Assembly (NCBI RefSeq): GCF_016745425.1
Contig: NZ_JAERVK010000004.1
Span: 1 to 64,000, forward strand
Length of the DNA stretch: 64,000 bases
DNA from: Candidatus Methylomicrobium oryzae
Lineage (GTDB): Bacteria > Pseudomonadota > Gammaproteobacteria > Methylococcales > Methylomonadaceae
Direction: 5' to 3'
Position numbers and translations under genes: made by a program. Below are positions 44,910-63,135 of this stretch, piece after piece (position 1 is the first letter of the stretch; the number at the start of each line of letters is the position of its first letter). The notes below the pieces were generated by a model. That model was not told the DNA's origin, did no database searches, and saw nothing but the letters and a program-made list of their open reading frames with translations.

Positions 44910-45416
44910 TCATTGCGAAGTTCCTGAGCCTCCTGAAGAGCCTGAGGCGCCCGAGCCTTCTTCCTGCATGGTGCCTGATGTGCCCGAACCGCCCTGCGAA
45001 GTGCCGTACGAACCGCTGGAACCACCTGAAGTACCTGAACGACCGGAAGTTCCTGAGCTTCCCGAAGTTCCTGAGCTTCCGGAAGTTCCTGAATTCCCCG
45101 AAGAGGTGCCCGAATCTTCCGGCGATGTGCCGCGCGATGTGCCGGAGCTTCCTTCCGGACTTCCGGTGATGCCTTGCGATGAACCGGTGGTGCCTCGGTA
45201 AGTTCCGGAGCTGCCCTGCGAACTACCGCTGCCGGTAGTGCCCTGAGAACTGCCGGAGCTTCCCATCGAGCCTCCGGACGTTCCCGTGTTTTCTTGCGAA
45301 GTGCCGGAACCCGCGCCGGTATCGCGCATCGTACCCGCCTGAGCGATGCCCGCCAGGCCAAGGCAAAAGCCGATCGTTAACCAGAGCTTTTTACTTAAAC
45401 AATTAGAAATACGCAT
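44910..45416 (-). CDS. Secreted Gly/Ser/Thr-rich repeat protein
   Basis: 168 residues from the ATG at 45416 with TAGGGAGAA upstream. The signal peptide is identical to that of the EF-hand protein except for one residue (F to L at position 11). The mature part is built of SGTSGSS-type repeats with no EF-hand. The paralogues are 36 bases apart on the same strand: a tandem duplication in which one copy kept or gained a calcium-binding end. Confidence 0.75.
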   Translation of the reverse strand: MRISNCLSKKLWLTIGFCLGLAGIAQAGTMRDTGAGSGTSQENTGTSGGSMGSSGSSQGTTGSGSSQGSSGTYRGTTGSSQGITGSPEGSSGTSRGTSPEDSGTSSGNSGTSGSSGTSGSSGTSGRSGTSGGSSGSYGTSQGGSGTSGTMQEEGSGASGSSGGSGTSQ

Positions 45417-45579
45417 ATTGATTCTCCCTATTGGATTAATAGTCATATATCATTCTTTACGCCCTTTCCCGTCCGAACGATCAAAATCGGATAAACCGGA
45501 ATTCGAGTAACGCGTAAAGGCGTTGAAAATATAGAGTTAACTTCAATTATTGTCAGTACGATATCCAACAGAAATATTA

Positions 45580-47355: not shown

Positions 47356-47682
47356 TCAGCCGCCTTTTTCTTTGCGCCGCATATCGATTTCCTTATGGTG
47401 GCTGGCTCGAAATGCAGCCCTCTCCTCCTTCGTCTTCATACCGTCGAGCTTCAGCAAATAATTGCATCTTTCTTGCTCGGTCATAAAATCGGCGCCGTAG
47501 ATATGAGAATATACCGGAACATCTCCCGCCCTTCCCGTCAATTCCTGAACAGGCTCGCTAAACGACTCTTCCTGCTGCTGTTCTTCTTCACTGGTACCGG
47601 CTGCATGCGCCAGCGGGGCAACGGAAAATAAAACCAGAATAAAAGCCGCGAAAAACTCTATCGATATCTCTTGCTTAACCAT
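47356..47682 (-). CDS. Secreted small protein with a TEQER...HHKE helix
   Basis: 108 residues. The signal peptide ends at about residue 28 (APLAHAAG). The C-terminal 45 residues form a charged helix with the recurring pattern MTEQERCNYLLKLDGMKTKE, then AAFRASHHKEIDMRRKEKG, seen in a family of periplasmic small proteins of unknown role. GAGGGTGA lies before the ATG. Its upstream region (47743-47810) carries a composite regulatory sequence shared with the DUF2934 gene at 62.9 kb. Confidence 0.7.
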   Translation of the reverse strand: MVKQEISIEFFAAFILVLFSVAPLAHAAGTSEEEQQQEESFSEPVQELTGRAGDVPVYSHIYGADFMTEQERCNYLLKLDGMKTKEERAAFRASHHKEIDMRRKEKGG

Positions 47683-47742
47683 AATTCATCACCCTCATTA
47701 CAATTAATAACAGCTGTTCTTTTTATTTTTTAATTAATTAAA

Positions 47743-47810
47743 TTTACAACAGAACAAGTAAATGTAAACATTAAATAACAGGCAATTAATGATAAGAAAT
47801 GGATAGAATA
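47743..47810 (-). promoter_or_regulatory. Composite regulatory element, copy 1
   Basis: On the minus strand: a 26-base box (47785-47810), 15 bases, GTTTACA (47763-47769), 14 bases, TGTAAA (47743-47748). The same three parts with the same spacing occur at 62646-62713. The box is 25/26 identical. TTTACA-N14-TGTAAA is a dyad. It ends 60 bases before the ATG at 47682. Confidence 0.75.
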
Positions 47811-48014
47811 GATATCCTATTTTTTAATAAACCGAGAGGGGATTTTCAAGCTGAAATGCCACGCAAGCGCCATGGCTTTTTACGTTTAAAGTCAGTCGAC
47901 ATAGGGCGCGAAGCAGAGCGCTGCGGTACAAACAAAGGCTTAATTCCCGCGGGAGCATTTACCGAGACAAACAGATTTATCGTTCCAATCAAAGAACGAG
48001 CCGGCCGAACCTAA
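47799..48014 (+). CDS. Doubtful small ORF
   Basis: 71 codons, MDRIDILFFNKPRGDFQAEM at the start, no family or ribosome site of note. Its start lies in the shared regulatory element copy 1, which argues that it may not be a gene. Listed because nothing else occupies 47811-48061. Confidence 0.2.
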   Translation: MDRIDILFFNKPRGDFQAEMPRKRHGFLRLKSVDIGREAERCGTNKGLIPAGAFTETNRFIVPIKERAGRT

Positions 48015-48119: not shown

Positions 48120-49598
48120 TCAATTTTCTTCTAGAAGCAGGCTTTGATCGGCGTGTGAGATCTCTTCATGCAGGGACATCAAATAGCCGGTCAGATTCAA
48201 TGAACGGCTGTTCAATCCCAATTTTTTGCGGATGTGCTTTCGGTGGATGTTGACCGTTCCCGGTGAGAGCTTCAGCATCGAAGCAATCACTTTTGTCGGC
48301 ATGGCCTGCCTGATCATCGACGCCACCTGGATTTCGACCGGGGTCAGCTTCATATAGGCGGCCGGCAGGCTTTCCGAAACGCCGTACGAATCCAGCAAAT
48401 GCTTTAAGTTGACCTCCAGAATGCCGATCAAGCGGATTTCGTTTTTATCGCGGGTATGCTCTTTCAGCTTTTTCAGAAAAGGCAGCACCGTTCTTTCCGC
48501 TTCCTGCGAAAGCGAGAACTGGGCCTTGGAAAGCTCCGCCTGTTGCTGCTTGAGCATCACTTGCAAAGCGGTGTTTATTTCGGAAGTTTCCTTATTGGCT
48601 TTCCCGAGGTCCGAATGCATGATTTTGATCTGCTTTTCGAGGAAGGCCTTTTTGTTCAGCAGAACTTTTTCAGCTTCCTTTTGCAAGGTAATGTCCGAAA
48701 AACAGATCACATAATGGCTGATGCGACCTTCGGGTCCAAGTACTTGGGTGATGCTGAGCGAGACGGGAAAAACCTCGCCGTTCTTGCGCCGCTCGCAGGC
48801 TTCGCCTTGCCAGTAGCCGTCGCGCACCATGGAGATCCACAAAAATTCCGCAAACGAGTCGTCCTGCAGGCCGCATTGAAAGAATGAAGGCGTCTGACCG
48901 ACAATTTCTTTCGCACTGTAACCGGTAATCCGGGTGAAGGCTTTATTGGAGCGCAGAATAAGCTTGTCCGCGTTGGTGATCAGGATGGCTTCCTGGGTCT
49001 CGAAAGCCGCGGCAGCCACGCGCAGGCATTGTTCGGCCTGCTTGAGTGAAGAAATGTCGCTGAGCGTCAAACGGAAAATCGGCAGTTCGCCGTCAATCTC
49101 GATGCGCAGGCAGTCGACCTGCACATAAAAAACGGAACCGTCGGCGCGCCGAATCTGCGTTTCGCAGCTCTGTCTATCCGCATTCTGGCGAGCCTGGCAA
49201 AAAAACCGGTGCCATTGGTCTTTTTCTTCATCGGCAATAAACTGCGCAAACAGCCGATTGATCAGCTTTCTGCGGGGCGTATCGAACAATTTCGCGCCGG
49301 TGAGGTTGCATTCGAGAATCACGCCGCCCCAAGTAATCGTACAATAACTGACCGGCGCAAAATCGTAAAGGTCGGCGTACCGGTCGCGCGAGGCAGTCAG
49401 TTCGGCCTGCGAACGCCGCAGTTCCTCATTTTGCATCTCCAGTTCGATCTGGTGGACCCGCAATTCGTGCAACAGTTTGTCGGGACTTAAAACCTCCCGG
49501 TCTTTTATGGCGACACGGGCAATTCGAGCTTCGGCTTTTTCGCGTAACTCTAACTGCCTTTGTAGCTGATCGAAGAGTAGATCGGTCTTCATAGTCAT
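48120..49598 (-). CDS. PAS-PAS-LuxR transcriptional regulator
   Basis: 492 residues. An N-terminal helical segment (1-75) is followed by two PAS domains (about 75-195 with YDFAPVSYCTITWGGVILEC; about 200-320 with SNKAFTRITGYSAKEIVGQT), a coiled coil of roughly 70 residues and a C-terminal LuxR-type HTH (LTPVEIQVASMIRQAMPTK, then LSPGTVNIHRKHIRKKLGL). There is no receiver and no kinase domain, so the PAS domains themselves likely sense the signal and the coiled coil passes it to the DNA-binding end. GGAGC precedes the ATG. Targets unknown. Confidence 0.9.
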   Translation of the reverse strand: MTMKTDLLFDQLQRQLELREKAEARIARVAIKDREVLSPDKLLHELRVHQIELEMQNEELRRSQAELTASRDRYADLYDFAPVSYCTITWGGVILECNLTGAKLFDTPRRKLINRLFAQFIADEEKDQWHRFFCQARQNADRQSCETQIRRADGSVFYVQVDCLRIEIDGELPIFRLTLSDISSLKQAEQCLRVAAAAFETQEAILITNADKLILRSNKAFTRITGYSAKEIVGQTPSFFQCGLQDDSFAEFLWISMVRDGYWQGEACERRKNGEVFPVSLSITQVLGPEGRISHYVICFSDITLQKEAEKVLLNKKAFLEKQIKIMHSDLGKANKETSEINTALQVMLKQQQAELSKAQFSLSQEAERTVLPFLKKLKEHTRDKNEIRLIGILEVNLKHLLDSYGVSESLPAAYMKLTPVEIQVASMIRQAMPTKVIASMLKLSPGTVNIHRKHIRKKLGLNSRSLNLTGYLMSLHEEISHADQSLLLEEN

Positions 49599-49825: not shown

Positions 49826-50554
49826 TCAAAAACTTCCCGATAATGACATGGAGCTTGACAAAACCGAATCGGTCAACGGAAAACGGCTTTCATCTTCCAA
49901 AACCGAAATAATCTCATCGCAATCAATGATGAGCTTGTCATCAGCCAGAATATGATCCGCCAGCCTGTTGATGGCGCTCCAGTTTGAGTAATCGCTGACG
50001 AAGGCGAATGCAGCCAGGAAGAATTCATTAATTTTTCTTTTTTTCAGGTCTTCGTTATCAAAAAAACATTCAAAATATTCCCTGACAACATCCAATTCAT
50101 ATGACCCGTCATAGTACTGCAGCGCCTTGACGTTGATCCGGTCCGAATTGACCAGTTCGTTATCGCGCATGGCTACATCCTTGGCTTCAGCCACCGGCCC
50201 CGCCAGCAAATTGATGATGTCCGCTTCGAAAGCGGTTTCATAGGCGATTTTCTGGGCAGCGGAAAAGTCCTTTGTCGCTGCAGCAAGTGACGTAGGCAGA
50301 TTCTGAACCAGGCGACCGCCTTCCATTTTGGCAATATAGGTATCATAAGGATCGCCGAGAAGACGTTTTGATTGGCTACCGCTTTGCACTATACCATTGA
50401 TCGTAATCCGAAAATAGACCGGCGGCAAACCTTTTTGCTTGTTGCCCAGATAAATGGCGGCAGCATGTCCGGCCTCATGGATGGCGTTTCTTCTACTGAG
50501 CTCTTTATGAGCCAGACGCGATGCCTTTATTAAGTTGTGGGAGTACTGATTCAT
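49826..50554 (-). CDS. Stand-alone HEAGH zinc peptidase-like protein
   Basis: 242 residues. The zinc-binding motif HEAGHAA lies near residue 27 (NAIHEAGHAAAIYLG), as in the peptidase domain of FtsH. The third ligand is probably acidic in the LNAGPVAE-like stretch (LLAGPVAEAKD) about 90 residues later, also as in FtsH. There is no AAA domain and no membrane helix, so it is a soluble peptidase fold without its motor. AGGAAC precedes the ATG. The substrate is unknown; catalytic activity is inferred from the motif. Confidence 0.75.
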   Translation of the reverse strand: MNQYSHNLIKASRLAHKELSRRNAIHEAGHAAAIYLGNKQKGLPPVYFRITINGIVQSGSQSKRLLGDPYDTYIAKMEGGRLVQNLPTSLAAATKDFSAAQKIAYETAFEADIINLLAGPVAEAKDVAMRDNELVNSDRINVKALQYYDGSYELDVVREYFECFFDNEDLKKRKINEFFLAAFAFVSDYSNWSAINRLADHILADDKLIIDCDEIISVLEDESRFPLTDSVLSSSMSLSGSF

Positions 50555-51833
50555 AAAATGTTCCTAATTGCCATCGATTTTTCATCCGCATAACACCAAA
50601 CGAAAACCGGCAAAAATCAAGCCCTTTCGTTCGGCGCACCTTAAAATGACATTTTCCATTGTTTTTTATTATCTAAACCAAGTAGGGCATCCGGCCGGGC
50701 AGGCATAGCGCTAGCTACACAAAGGTCCCTGCGCCAATCAATTTACAACGCCTTACACGCAACACAGATTGACTATTTTTCCTCGATAGCATAAGGAAGA
50801 TACCGCTATCTCCGCCCTAGCCCCGGGTAGGATGCCCGCGCCTGCCGGAGCCGATCGTGTCATATTCCGATCTTCCTGTAGCTTGCCCGGCCGTTTTTCA
50901 TCAGCACGTCAAAGCCAATCCGCACTGACTCGAGCCGCTGACAAAACCGCATTTTTAGATGATTTAATTTCAAAAATTCGGCTCCTCATGCGTTCTTTTG
51001 GCTTCCCTGGATAGCACGAGCCAAACCGGATTCTCATGCCATCGATCCGAATGTTTATAAAATTTTGTATCGGTTCCGGGGAATTTCCCTCTCTAGCAAT
51101 GCCGTTAAAAACTACCTCATTCCGGCAAAAATCGCCGGCCGACGGTCCAACTTAACGACATTGCCCTTTTCGCCGACGGATGCTAGTTTATATTTATATC
51201 TAGAAAACTGTAAATATACAAATAATGAGGGGCTAAGGATATTAAATGGATATACAAAGTATCAATTCCCGAAAAGCTACGACTCTAGCCCTGGCTAAGC
51301 CTTTAGAATATAAAAGAATTAAAGATTGGCACCGCAGTTCGACTTCAGCATTAGGCAGGCACTTTTTAAAAAAAATTGAGGCTTTATTAAGGGTATTTTA
51401 AGTCACTCACAATCACTTTATGCAATGCCTCTTTCTGTACCAGCAACTCGTCGATTGCCCTTAGCTAAACCTAAAAAAATCAAGAACAAAACCCGGAAAT
51501 ATCGAATATATAAACAACTTAATTAATCAATTAATGATTATAAATCATTATATTATTACAAGTTATTCTTATTTTTTGATTAATGCACTTAATTTATACT
51601 TATTTCGCATTCGAACAAAATTGGAACTTGAATAACGGCCCTTGTCTCTAACAAATTATTCAAAAACAAGAATCCGCGAACAAAAATCATTTACAACCAA
51701 TTTAGTTAAACTAAAAATCCAGGCATTCATAAATAATCCTACTTGCTAAGAAATTTTAGCAAACAGGTAAATTTCATGTTTCGGAAAAATACCGGCGCAC
51801 CATTTTGCGCGATTACCGGGGGAGTTAATCCTA
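50555..51833. other. Long AT-rich intergenic region before the trehalose operon
   Basis: About 1.28 kb. Short open frames (50832-51014, 51065-51298) lack ribosome sites and family resemblance. From 51300 on it is very AT-rich with TTAATTAATCAATTAA-type dyads around 51510-51560. It probably holds the regulated promoter of the operon that follows. No RNA gene was recognised. Confidence 0.6.
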
Positions 51834-58849: not shown

Positions 58850-61801
58850 GTGAACAAAACCCAATCTTCATCCAATAACCATTCGGATACTTCCCCTAAA
58901 TCTCCCGAAAATACGGCCGGATCTTTCAAAATTGTCGGAATCGGCGCCTCCGCCGGCGGTCTGGAAGCTTTCGAGGAATTCTTCCAGCATATGCCGGCCG
59001 ACAGCGGCCTCGCCTTTGTGCTGGTGCCGCATCTCGACCCGAGCCACGCCAGCCTGCTGACCGAAATCCTGCAGCGCTCGACCAGCATGCCGGTCGTCGA
59101 AGTGCAGGACCAAATGCCGGTTGCCCCCGACAAGGTGTACGTGATTCCGCCCAACCGGGACATGGAAATTTTTCACCGTAAAATCCAGCTCAGCATCCCG
59201 AATGTGCCGCGCGGGAAGCGCCTGCCGATCGACGCCTTTCTGCGCTCGCTGGCCGAGGACCAGAAAGAAAACGCGGTCGGGATCATCCTGTCCGGGACCG
59301 GCACCGACGGCACCTTAGGGTGCCGCGCGATACTCGGCGCGGGCGGCATGACTTACGTGCAGAAGCCCGACACGGCGCGTTACGACGGCATGCCGTCCAG
59401 CGTGATCCAGACCGGCTATGCGGCGCGGGTATTGCCTGTCGATAAAATGCCCGATGCGCTGATCGCCGAGTCCGAACACATCCGGATCACCGAGGCCGAA
59501 AAACCCGCCGCCGAAGGCGAACCGGCGGCCTCGCGCCCCAAACCGGAAAGCGGCATGATGCGTATTCTGCTGCTGCTCCGCTCGATTACCGGCCACGACT
59601 TTTCCTTGTACAAGGAAAGCACGATCGGCCGCCGCATCGAGCGCTGCATGCTGCAGAACGACATTAAGGATACCGATACCTATATCCGCTACCTCAAGGA
59701 AAAACCGGACGAAGTCCACACCCTGTTCAAGGAACTGCTGATCAATGTAACCAGTTTTTTCCGCGATCCGGAAGCGTTTGCGATCCTGGAAGAAACCATA
59801 CTGCCGCAGTTGTGCAAGGATAAACCGGAAGGCGCTATTTTCCGGGTCTGGGTCGCCGGGTGCGCCACCGGCGAGGAAGCCTACTCGATTGCGATCGTCT
59901 TGCGCGAACTGATGGACAAGCTCCAGAAAGAGCTTAAGGTCCAGATTTACAGCACCGACCTGGACGAAGATGCGATTGTAATCGCCCGCACCGGCCTTTA
60001 TCCGCCCAACATCGCCCAGGATGTCACGCCGGAACGGCTGCGCCGTTTTTTTTTAAAAGAAGACAACGGTTACCGGGTCAAAAAGGAGATCCGGGAAATG
60101 ATCGTGTTCGCGGTGCAAAACGTGATCAAGGATCCGCCGTTCACCAAACTCGACCTCTTATGCTGCCGCAATCTGCTGATTTACCTGAAGCCGGAACTTC
60201 AGGACAGGCTGATACCGGCGTTTCATTATGCGCTCAAGCCGGAGGGCGTGCTGTTCCTGTCGCCTTCGGAAAGCATCGGCAGTCATAACGAACTCTTCAA
60301 AGTGCTGAACCGCAAGTGGAAGCTCTATCGCGCCGTGCATTCCTTAACCTCCGCCCGGACCATGATGGCGCAAGGGATATCCTGGGGACTGGGAAACGTT
60401 ACAAAAACCTCCGACGAAAACATGAAGACGATCAGGGAATTCAACATTGCCGAGCTGACACGGCGCATGCTGGTGCAGTTTTTCGCGCCCGTTTCGGTGA
60501 TCGCCGACCATAAAGGCGACATCCTGTTCATTCACGGCGAAACCGGCAAATATCTGCGCCCTGCCCCCGGCCAGCCCTCGCACAACATCATCGAGATGGC
60601 CCGCGAAGGGTTGGGGATGGAGCTGCGCACCGCGATCCACGTGGCAGCCAATGAGAAAGTACAAGTTTTGAACCGGCAGATAGAAGTCAGAACCAACGGC
60701 GGTTTCTCCCCGATCAGCCTGTCGGTGCGCCCTATTTCCAACCCGGACGCCAACCAGAATCTGCTGCTGATCAGCTTTGAGGATGTCACCGTCGATCTCG
60801 CCAAACCGGTACGCAAACGCACCACCAAACCCGGCGAACAGGGACGCATCGAAGAACTGGAGCGGGCACTGGAGCAGTTGAAAACCAGCTATCGCGCCAG
60901 TATCGAAGAACAGCAGGCGTCCAACGAGGAACTCAAGTCCGCCAACGAAGAAATGCAGTCCACCAACGAGGAATTGCAATCGACCAACGAGGAACTGGAA
61001 ACCTCGAAGGAAGAGTTGCAGTCGGTCAACGAAGAACTGGTCACCGTCAACTCGGAGCTTCAGGCCAAAATCGAGCAGCTGGCCGGCATGCAGAACGACA
61101 TGAAAAACCTGCTGGACAACATCAACGTCGGGATCATTTTTCTCGACCGGAACCTGATCATCCGGCGCTTCACGCGCGAAGCGGTGCGGATTTACCGGCT
61201 GGTGCCTTCGGACGTAGGCCGGCCTTTGAACGACATCAAATCGGCCATCAACGGCGACGACCTTCACCATGCGGCGCAAGCCGTGCTCGAATCGCTGATC
61301 CCTTACGAGCGCGAGCTGTACATCGGCGACAATACCTGGATGATGGCGCGCATCCAGCCCTACCGGACGCTGGACAATATCATCGACGGGGTGGTGCTGA
61401 CCTTTACCGACATTACTTCGCGCGTGAAGGAGATCGCGTCGCAGGACGCGCTGGTGCGGGCCGAAAGCATCGTCAGCCTCGTACACCAGCCTCTTCTGGT
61501 ACTCACCGAAGCGCTAAAGGTCGTATCGGCCAGCCAGGCGTTCTACAGGGAATTCGGATTGGCTCCCGAGGAGACGATCGGCAAGGAAATCTTTCAATTG
61601 AAGGCGGGCCTCTCCGATTTTACCGAGCTTCGCCGCCTGCTGGAGAATGTATTAGCGAACGAGCAGCCCATTAAAGGATTTAAGCTGGAACGCGAAATTC
61701 CCGGCATCGGCCGCCGCAGGCTGGAGATCAACGCCAGCCGGATCATGGGCAAGATCAATATGCCGCAGATGATTCTGCTGTCGCTGGAAATCAATCCCTG
61801 A
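58850..61801 (+). CDS. CheB-CheR-PAS fusion protein
   Basis: 983 residues from a GTG. CheB methylesterase domain (about 25-210) with Ser in GIGASAGG, His in VPHLDPSHASLL and Asp in SGTGTDG; CheR methyltransferase (about 225-500) with FSLYKESTIGRRIERCM and SAM-site VWVAGCATGEEAYSIA; a PAS-like segment (about 520-640); a long coiled coil (665-745) of NEELQST-type repeats; then two PAS domains. Kinase domains often follow in this class but the chain stops here at the last PAS. No chemoreceptor or CheA gene is near, so it may modify another pathway, such as a stress or biofilm switch. Confidence 0.93.
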   Translation: MNKTQSSSNNHSDTSPKSPENTAGSFKIVGIGASAGGLEAFEEFFQHMPADSGLAFVLVPHLDPSHASLLTEILQRSTSMPVVEVQDQMPVAPDKVYVIPPNRDMEIFHRKIQLSIPNVPRGKRLPIDAFLRSLAEDQKENAVGIILSGTGTDGTLGCRAILGAGGMTYVQKPDTARYDGMPSSVIQTGYAARVLPVDKMPDALIAESEHIRITEAEKPAAEGEPAASRPKPESGMMRILLLLRSITGHDFSLYKESTIGRRIERCMLQNDIKDTDTYIRYLKEKPDEVHTLFKELLINVTSFFRDPEAFAILEETILPQLCKDKPEGAIFRVWVAGCATGEEAYSIAIVLRELMDKLQKELKVQIYSTDLDEDAIVIARTGLYPPNIAQDVTPERLRRFFLKEDNGYRVKKEIREMIVFAVQNVIKDPPFTKLDLLCCRNLLIYLKPELQDRLIPAFHYALKPEGVLFLSPSESIGSHNELFKVLNRKWKLYRAVHSLTSARTMMAQGISWGLGNVTKTSDENMKTIREFNIAELTRRMLVQFFAPVSVIADHKGDILFIHGETGKYLRPAPGQPSHNIIEMAREGLGMELRTAIHVAANEKVQVLNRQIEVRTNGGFSPISLSVRPISNPDANQNLLLISFEDVTVDLAKPVRKRTTKPGEQGRIEELERALEQLKTSYRASIEEQQASNEELKSANEEMQSTNEELQSTNEELETSKEELQSVNEELVTVNSELQAKIEQLAGMQNDMKNLLDNINVGIIFLDRNLIIRRFTREAVRIYRLVPSDVGRPLNDIKSAINGDDLHHAAQAVLESLIPYERELYIGDNTWMMARIQPYRTLDNIIDGVVLTFTDITSRVKEIASQDALVRAESIVSLVHQPLLVLTEALKVVSASQAFYREFGLAPEETIGKEIFQLKAGLSDFTELRRLLENVLANEQPIKGFKLEREIPGIGRRRLEINASRIMGKINMPQMILLSLEINP

Positions 61802-61957: not shown

Positions 61958-61963
61958 GCCAGT

Positions 61964-62053
61964 CTGTAATCTGTAATCTGTAATCTGTAATCTGTAATCT
62001 GTAATCTGTAGTCTGTAATCTGTAGTCTGTAGTCTGTAGTCTGTAGTCTGTAG
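61964..62053. repeat. Heptanucleotide tandem repeat (CTGTAAT)13
   Basis: About 13 units of CTGTAAT or CTGTAGT. The AAT form dominates the left, the AGT form the right, which suggests stepwise unit growth from each end. The right end merges into a GTAGGATG palindrome. Confidence 0.95.
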
Positions 62054-62460: not shown

Positions 62461-62645
62461 CTTCGAGCTATTCGTGCAGTATGGGCTATCCGAGGTGCAT
62501 AACGGAGCGTTAAAGCTACCGAACAATAAATCTAAAACTAATCCACATTATTCGATTACCCGTTCGAATACCGAAAAAAAGCTCTATCAAATAAAGCTTA
62601 TTCAGCGGCACGGCTTTAACGCGTCCCCTTCCCCACACGGATAGT

Positions 62646-62713
62646 TATTCTATCCATTCCTTATCATTAATCCTTCTTTCTTGCGCGTTTACAATTATTT
62701 TTTTTACTGTAAA
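62646..62713 (+). promoter_or_regulatory. Composite regulatory element, copy 2
   Basis: 26-base box (62646-62671), 15 bases, GTTTACA (62687-62693), 14 bases, TGTAAA (62708-62713). Same parts and spacing as 47743-47810, and the same orientation relative to the gene downstream. It ends 170 bases before the DUF2934 start. Confidence 0.75.
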
Positions 62714-62883
62714 GTAAGATGCACCGAGAATTAACGAATATATTAATTAAATTTTCCAAATTAAAACAAAGATTTTTATGTCGTTTTTAAACCGCTTTAT
62801 TTAAGAAAAATAATTCAGGCTTATTATCTGCTGTTTTAAATGTAGTAATTCGATGATTTTCAACCATGCGCGAGGTAGAAAAA

Positions 62884-63135
62884 ATGGCTTCCAGAAATGC
62901 TAAAGTCACAAAGGACGACGCTTCGGTAGAACTAGAATCAACTCCGGATCAAGAAGGGCCGGAGCAAGAGCAAATTCTCTCCGTCTATCAAGAAGCCCCG
63001 GAAATGGATTTCGACCGAGAAGCCAGAATTGCCCAGCTGGCTTATTACAAAGCGGAACAAAGAGGATTCGAGCCGGGTCATGAATTGGAAGACTGGTACT
63101 CTGCCGAACAGGAAATTAATGTTTCGCCAGGCTAG
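62884..63135 (+). CDS. DUF2934 protein
   Basis: 83 residues from the ATG at 62884, preceded by GAGGTAG; an ATG at 62866 is less well placed. The C-terminal half is DUF2934: REARIAQLAYYKAEQRGFEP, then GHELEDWYSAEQEI. The family is small and of unknown function. The N-terminal half is charged and probably disordered. A composite element shared with the small secreted protein at 47.4 kb lies upstream, separated by an AT-rich leader. Confidence 0.8.
   Translation: MASRNAKVTKDDASVELESTPDQEGPEQEQILSVYQEAPEMDFDREARIAQLAYYKAEQRGFEPGHELEDWYSAEQEINVSPG

Follow-up and report, generated by a model that had tools for sequence, protein, structure and literature searches.

Introduction

Transcriptional activators with a NarL-type or LuxR-type helix-turn-helix (HTH) domain are the closest described counterparts of the control elements analysed here. 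The NarL-family activator BvgA of Bordetella recognizes a primary inverted heptad and lines up along one face of the DNA with one monomer per helical turn, so that its promoters resemble the present ones in having an inverted primary site and further sites next to the core promoter (PMC7250471). The half-site is different, however, and BvgA is a phosphorylated response regulator, whereas the candidate regulator considered here carries its PAS sensor in the same protein. In E. coli, NarL/NarP-controlled promoters likewise carry several half-sites ahead of a sigma70 core, the HTH is alike, and the NarL heptamer TACYYMT (PMC4886647) overlaps the TAYCCAT found in this study. They differ in that the inverted pair is here GGATA-N7-TATCC, accompanied by direct repeats at 11-bp intervals, and in that the candidate regulator is without a receiver domain and therefore has no evident phosphorylation switch. 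The NarL 7-2-7 arrangement orients its half-sites opposite to GGATA-N7-TATCC. Streptomyces PAS-LuxR regulators (PimM type) are transcriptional activators with an N-terminal PAS domain and a C-terminal LuxR HTH (PMC3367932, PMC6448028), an organization shared by the candidate regulator. The latter differs in the number of its PAS domains (at least two), in possessing a long conserved linker, in its putative operator, and in its association with a CheB/CheR-PAS protein rather than with antibiotic clusters. The PimM operator is CTVGGGAWWTCCCBAG. The BirA operator was also considered as a model and dropped, since its half-sites run in the opposite order to those found here. No paper describing the control circuit was found in the literature, nor any relevant to the motif, to a CheB/CheR-PAS protein with a LuxR protein, or to a Methylomicrobium regulator with HicB.

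A Composite Element and Its Operator Family

The window analysed here is a stretch of 64,000 nucleotides from Candidatus Methylomicrobium oryzae. A first-pass annotation of this DNA described two composite elements at 47743-47810 (minus strand) and 62646-62713 (plus strand), and both were confirmed at these positions with the annotated spacing (copies 1 and 2; Table 1). With up to three mismatches, the 26-base box has two matches in the window (versus 0 in 100 shuffles) and only the same two copies in the 4.73 Mb genome, as does the second half of the box together with both hexamers (TATCATTAAT-N15-GTTTACA-N14-TGTAAA) at the same threshold, and the exact sequence GTTTACA-N14-TGTAAA is likewise restricted to copies 1 and 2 in each of the two genomes of the genus. 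The full pattern (box-N15-GTTTACA-N14-TGTAAA) is also present at both orthologous sites of the congener G001, the one other genome of the genus compared. The scan of the genome and its relatives that the annotation proposed thus established conservation in the congener, but it brought no further full copies from the window genome or from 235 other family genomes (box with up to three mismatches). Exact matches to the box core also exist in other bacteria, but they have no correctly positioned GTTTACA/TGTAAA and are apparently accidental; viral contigs contain no exact match to the box core.

The box is present in both copies as annotated, but the similarity between them extends 7 bases further upstream (GGATAnn). 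Weaker sites in front of HicB-like genes, obtained by degenerate motif searches, revealed the box to be the right-hand portion of a longer palindrome, AATGGATA-N7-TATCCATT. The operator layout consists of an inverted half-site, 7 bases, and then direct half-sites TAYCCATT at 11-bp steps; in oriented sites, TATCCATT is followed by TAYCnnTT at +11 and approximately +22, 8-9 bases, and the putative -35. The 7-base gap between the inverted half-sites is A/T-rich in a second genus (g27), and in copies 1 and 2 the H1 half-site has two mismatches and the fourth half-site is degenerate.

Table 1. Coordinates of the control elements and associated genes in the window (+, forward strand; -, reverse strand).
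Feature	Positions	Strand	Remarks
Target gene 1, predicted secreted TEQER protein	47356-47682	-	108 aa; no Pfam family
Copy 1, putative -10 TAAATT after TG	47741-47746	-	TGTAAA of first-pass annotation; spacer 16
Copy 1, putative -35 TTTACA	47763-47768	-	part of annotated GTTTACA; position 53-58 from palindrome start, as in other predicted regulon members
Copy 1, half-site H3 (TATCATTA)	47787-47794	-	11 bp past H2; end of box
Copy 1, half-site H2 (TATCCATT)	47798-47805	-	inside annotated box
Copy 1, inverted half-site H1 (ATAGGATA)	47813-47820	-	2 mismatches to AATGGATA
Candidate regulator, PAS-PAS protein with C-terminal LuxR/NarL-type HTH (PAS-LuxR)	48120-49598	-	upstream neighbour of copy 1
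HEAGH-motif protein	49826-50554	-	next gene after third operator, just before PAS-LuxR
Third operator, putative -10 TAAACT	51185-51190	-	
Third operator, putative -35 TTTACA	51209-51214	-	
Third operator palindrome, AATTGATA-N7-TATCCATT	51245-51267	-	conserved in congener (L115)
CheB-CheR-PAS protein	58850-61801	+	Pfam; upstream of copy 2
Copy 2, inverted half-site H1 (CACGGATA)	62636-62643	+	
Copy 2, half-site H2 (TATCCATT)	62651-62658	+	
Copy 2, half-site H3 (TATCATTA)	62662-62669	+	
Copy 2, putative -35 TTTACA	62688-62693	+	
Copy 2, putative -10 TAAAGT after TG	62710-62715	+	spacer 16
Target gene 2, DUF2934 protein	62884-63135	+	Pfam PF11154, E=4e-15

Allowing up to two mismatches, the two genomes of the window genus (g1) have 15 and 13 matches to the palindrome, as opposed to 1 and 0 for the reversed control; counted as strand-hits, there are 27 per genome versus 2 and 0 for the reversed pattern. 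Similar numbers (10-14 sites; controls 0-2) are found in seven of the eight g27 genomes, compared with ~1.95 per genome elsewhere in the family (control ~1.4), and g1 and g27 are the only genera with a clear excess among 237 family genomes. The nine best sites in the window genome lie outside long genes. The palindrome would thus mark a regulon of about 10-15 mostly non-coding sites per genome. The findings are consistent with a single regulator for the two annotated genes, but the element is not private to them.

The genes behind the operators include those for HicB-like proteins, exopolysaccharide functions, HEAGH proteins, and others (e.g., glycosyltransferases and, judged by eye, a dTDP-glucose dehydratase-like protein). 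Each genome encodes five or more single-domain HicB-like proteins behind operators (weak Pfam matches to PF15919), and the best NCBIfam match of an exopolysaccharide export protein, below the cut-off, is of the XrtA/PEP-CTERM type. At least one target, the HEAGH protein, is common to g1 and g27 (L162). HicB-like genes under an operator were seen at L095, L096, L097, L101, L104, L108, L110, L117, and L123, with an HtpG-like gene ~0.4 kb beyond the HicB-like gene at L096; no HicA partner was noticed. Several g27 palindromes located in long open reading frames or without promoter geometry (L168, L171, L173, L182, L188-L190) were set aside as chance occurrences, and sites where the promoter is absent (L098/L109, in a PII/ammonium transporter region, and L100) are doubtful.

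The Candidate Regulator

Pfam assigns PAS_9, PAS, and GerE domains to the PAS-LuxR protein, the last of these being a C-terminal HTH (PF00196, E=3e-11) with NarL as its best PDB match (1je8, E 7e-7). Only PAS-type domains are found N-terminally (Pfam), and the receiver domain of NarL/FixJ response regulators is missing; the combination of a PAS sensor domain with a LuxR HTH is that of PimM-type proteins. PAS-LuxR may therefore be NarL-like at the DNA, yet not a response regulator. The orthologues of PAS-LuxR share an almost invariant recognition helix (GTvxIHRKHIRKKL). Of the half-site variants, TACCCAT, common in g27 and others, fits the NarL heptamer exactly, and the TATCCAT of the window (g1) is one base off.

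The PAS-LuxR gene is present in 31 of the 237 family genomes, among them every one of the nine that have a clear excess of sites (Fisher 4e-9), and outside g1 and g27 the genomes that carry it have 2.9 sites versus 1.85 in others (p=0.0003), although these p-values overstate the evidence because the genomes tallied are related. The 22 PAS-LuxR genomes outside the two genera contain no large regulon. Among the 25 PAS-LuxR loci with enough flanking sequence, 17 have the palindrome (up to two mismatches) no more than 0.5 kb beyond the stop codon of PAS-LuxR, most at 20-77 bp (15 by script, plus L201 and L202, where the script overran the true stop), versus a mean of 0.10 and a maximum of 4 for 200 permuted motifs; the other ~8 are without an adjacent site of that quality. 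Where a genus has no genome-wide excess of sites, the PAS-LuxR stop is closely followed by a near-perfect operator that has the same promoter geometry and points toward the next gene. This adjacency across several genera is the strongest point for PAS-LuxR, which is the most likely regulator on the sequence evidence.

A regulon that is real but controlled by a different regulator of the NarL/LuxR or OmpR type, its gene lying elsewhere, with PAS-LuxR as one of its conserved members, is unlikely, though it deserves more weight than any other rival. Regulators are often separate from their targets, several PAS proteins are encoded near g27 sites (L164, L172), and the operator comes after, not before, most PAS-LuxR genes. 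Against this, the regulon is found only where PAS-LuxR occurs, no gene other than PAS-LuxR is constant next to the operator from genus to genus, and the NarL-like HTH of PAS-LuxR fits the NarL-like half-site.

Core Promoter and Predicted Mode of Action

The first-pass annotation interpreted TTTACA-N14-TGTAAA as an operator bound by a dimeric regulator; the box would then be a second site. The hexamers do form perfect inverted repeats in copies 1 and 2 and in both orthologues, which alone have the exact pattern, but other members of the operator family keep the position of TTTACA and have TAAAnT at a 16-18-base spacer rather than TGTAAA at N14, and TGTAAA overlaps the -10; this interpretation is consequently very improbable. 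Because their counterparts in the regulon keep TTTACA and TAAAnT at promoter spacing, GTTTACA and TGTAAA are, to judge from their sequence, the -35 (TTTACA) and -10 (TAAAnT) of a sigma70-like promoter. The inverted repeat is peculiar to copies 1 and 2 (and their orthologues) because TG precedes their -10, and it is not conserved across the co-regulated promoters. Both copies have the TTGACA-like -35, TATAAT-like -10, and 16-18-base spacer of a sigma70-type core promoter.

Promoters in g1 read TTTACA, 16-18 bases, TAAAnT, with a -35/-10 score of 10.3 versus 7.4 when shuffled (shuffle maximum 8.0), and those in g27 read TTGnnn, 17 bases, GAnAAT at the same distance from the operator. The -35 and -10 sequences thus differ between the two genera. 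The distance from operator to promoter is constant in g1, g27, and others. The -10 GAnAAT at g27 sites (e.g., L156-L187), behind TTGnnn, is unusual in having G in place of the usual first T.

Taken together, both copies are probably activator-dependent sigma70-type promoters of one regulon, with PAS-LuxR as the most likely NarL-like regulator. The sequences compared show that the sites exist, how they are spaced relative to promoter-like elements, that they are conserved, and that they are linked to PAS-LuxR genes, and the site geometry fits an activator located upstream of the -35. A NarL-like regulator would bind the inverted pair GGATA-N7-TATCCATT and the direct half-sites at 11-bp steps, with one protomer per helical turn on a single DNA face. 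It would thereby be placed beside the -35 TTTACA and could recruit RNA polymerase to the weak core promoter (-10 TAAAnT); occupation of the half-sites and a polymerase contact at the -35 are expected by analogy with BvgA. The TEQER gene would be driven from copy 1 and the DUF2934 gene from copy 2; the site at 51245 would probably serve both the HEAGH gene and the regulator's own gene, and HicB-like, exopolysaccharide, and further genes would depend on other sites. We infer binding at these sites and a signal; activation is favored over repression because the sites end just upstream of a non-consensus promoter, and positive autoregulation is possible because PAS-LuxR, like the HEAGH gene, lies downstream of the operator at 51245. 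A repeat pair in one window would in this way lead to a regulon for which a consensus operator, a constant promoter layout, a list of targets, and a regulator candidate can be named, linking proteins of unknown role (DUF2934, TEQER, HEAGH, and HicB-like) to one circuit.

Conservation of the Two Copies

The earlier claim that a conserved control element is directed at the TEQER and DUF2934 genes holds in the congener, where the same genes lie behind both orthologous sites. The two copies are 1.15 Mb apart in the congener (15 kb in the window genome). Between the species, the half-sites, -35, and -10 of copy 1 are 97% identical and the rest of the 80-base element is 77% identical; copy 2 is too conserved to separate contacts from other positions. 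An origin of the copies from a duplicated or mobile segment, of which they would be relics without shared regulation, is the least credible explanation: they are near-identical over 33 bases, but their spacers are unrelated and both species preserve the putative contacts, neither flanking repeats nor mobile genes were noticed, and the motif recurs at ~10-15 mostly non-coding sites. The annotation's rejection of a recent duplication is supported.

Cassette Organization

A CheB-CheR-PAS homologue is encoded directly before PAS-LuxR in other genera, and at eight loci the end of such a protein precedes PAS-LuxR (L193, L194, L203, L206, L212, L213, L216, and L218). At five loci, a DUF2934 gene follows the PAS-LuxR operator (L193, L194, L200, L208, and L210). 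The ancestral unit appears to comprise CheB/CheR-PAS, PAS-LuxR, an operator-promoter, and a small gene, often DUF2934. In the window, CheB/CheR-PAS precedes copy 2 and DUF2934, and PAS-LuxR precedes copy 1 and TEQER, an arrangement suggesting that one ancestral cassette was split into two blocks ~10 kb apart rather than that two related cassettes were kept.

Pfam detects no kinase or receiver domain in the proteins of 58850-61801 and 48120-49598. A tentative possibility is that the two form a kinase- and receiver-free pair in which methylation or PAS contact carries a signal from a chemotaxis-type methyltransferase/methylesterase sensor to a NarL-like one-component activator, and that the operator-promoter beside the regulator gene has spread in two genera into a stress, matrix, and HicB-like regulon. 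Whatever the signalling route, the regulon would be a clear case of a local switch, with regulator and operator side by side, that has grown genome-wide in two genera. Positions 61963-62052, downstream of the CheB/CheR-PAS gene and ahead of copy 2, contain 12.9 copies of the 7-base repeat TCTGTAA.

Target Genes and Neighboring Features

The open reading frame of the DUF2934 gene opens at 62866, and its probable start is the ATG at 62884 after GAGG (by eye and from the congener). The site at 51245 would leave a leader of ~0.6 kb to the presumed HEAGH target gene; HEAGH homologues are also found behind an operator in g27 and in the PAS-LuxR/DUF2934 cassette of L200. The DNA upstream of TEQER orthologues in other genera is unrelated, and the operator-TEQER link is therefore genus-specific. 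Several of these orthologues (L011, L013, L014, L015, L017, and L018) appear to share a different, conserved upstream block with AATTGTC, TTTCAG, and GCTGAA segments, which may be another control element. Elsewhere in the window, 44910-45446 (minus strand) encodes a 178-aa predicted exported protein of SGTSG-type repeats, at a locus with several related GC-rich repeats.
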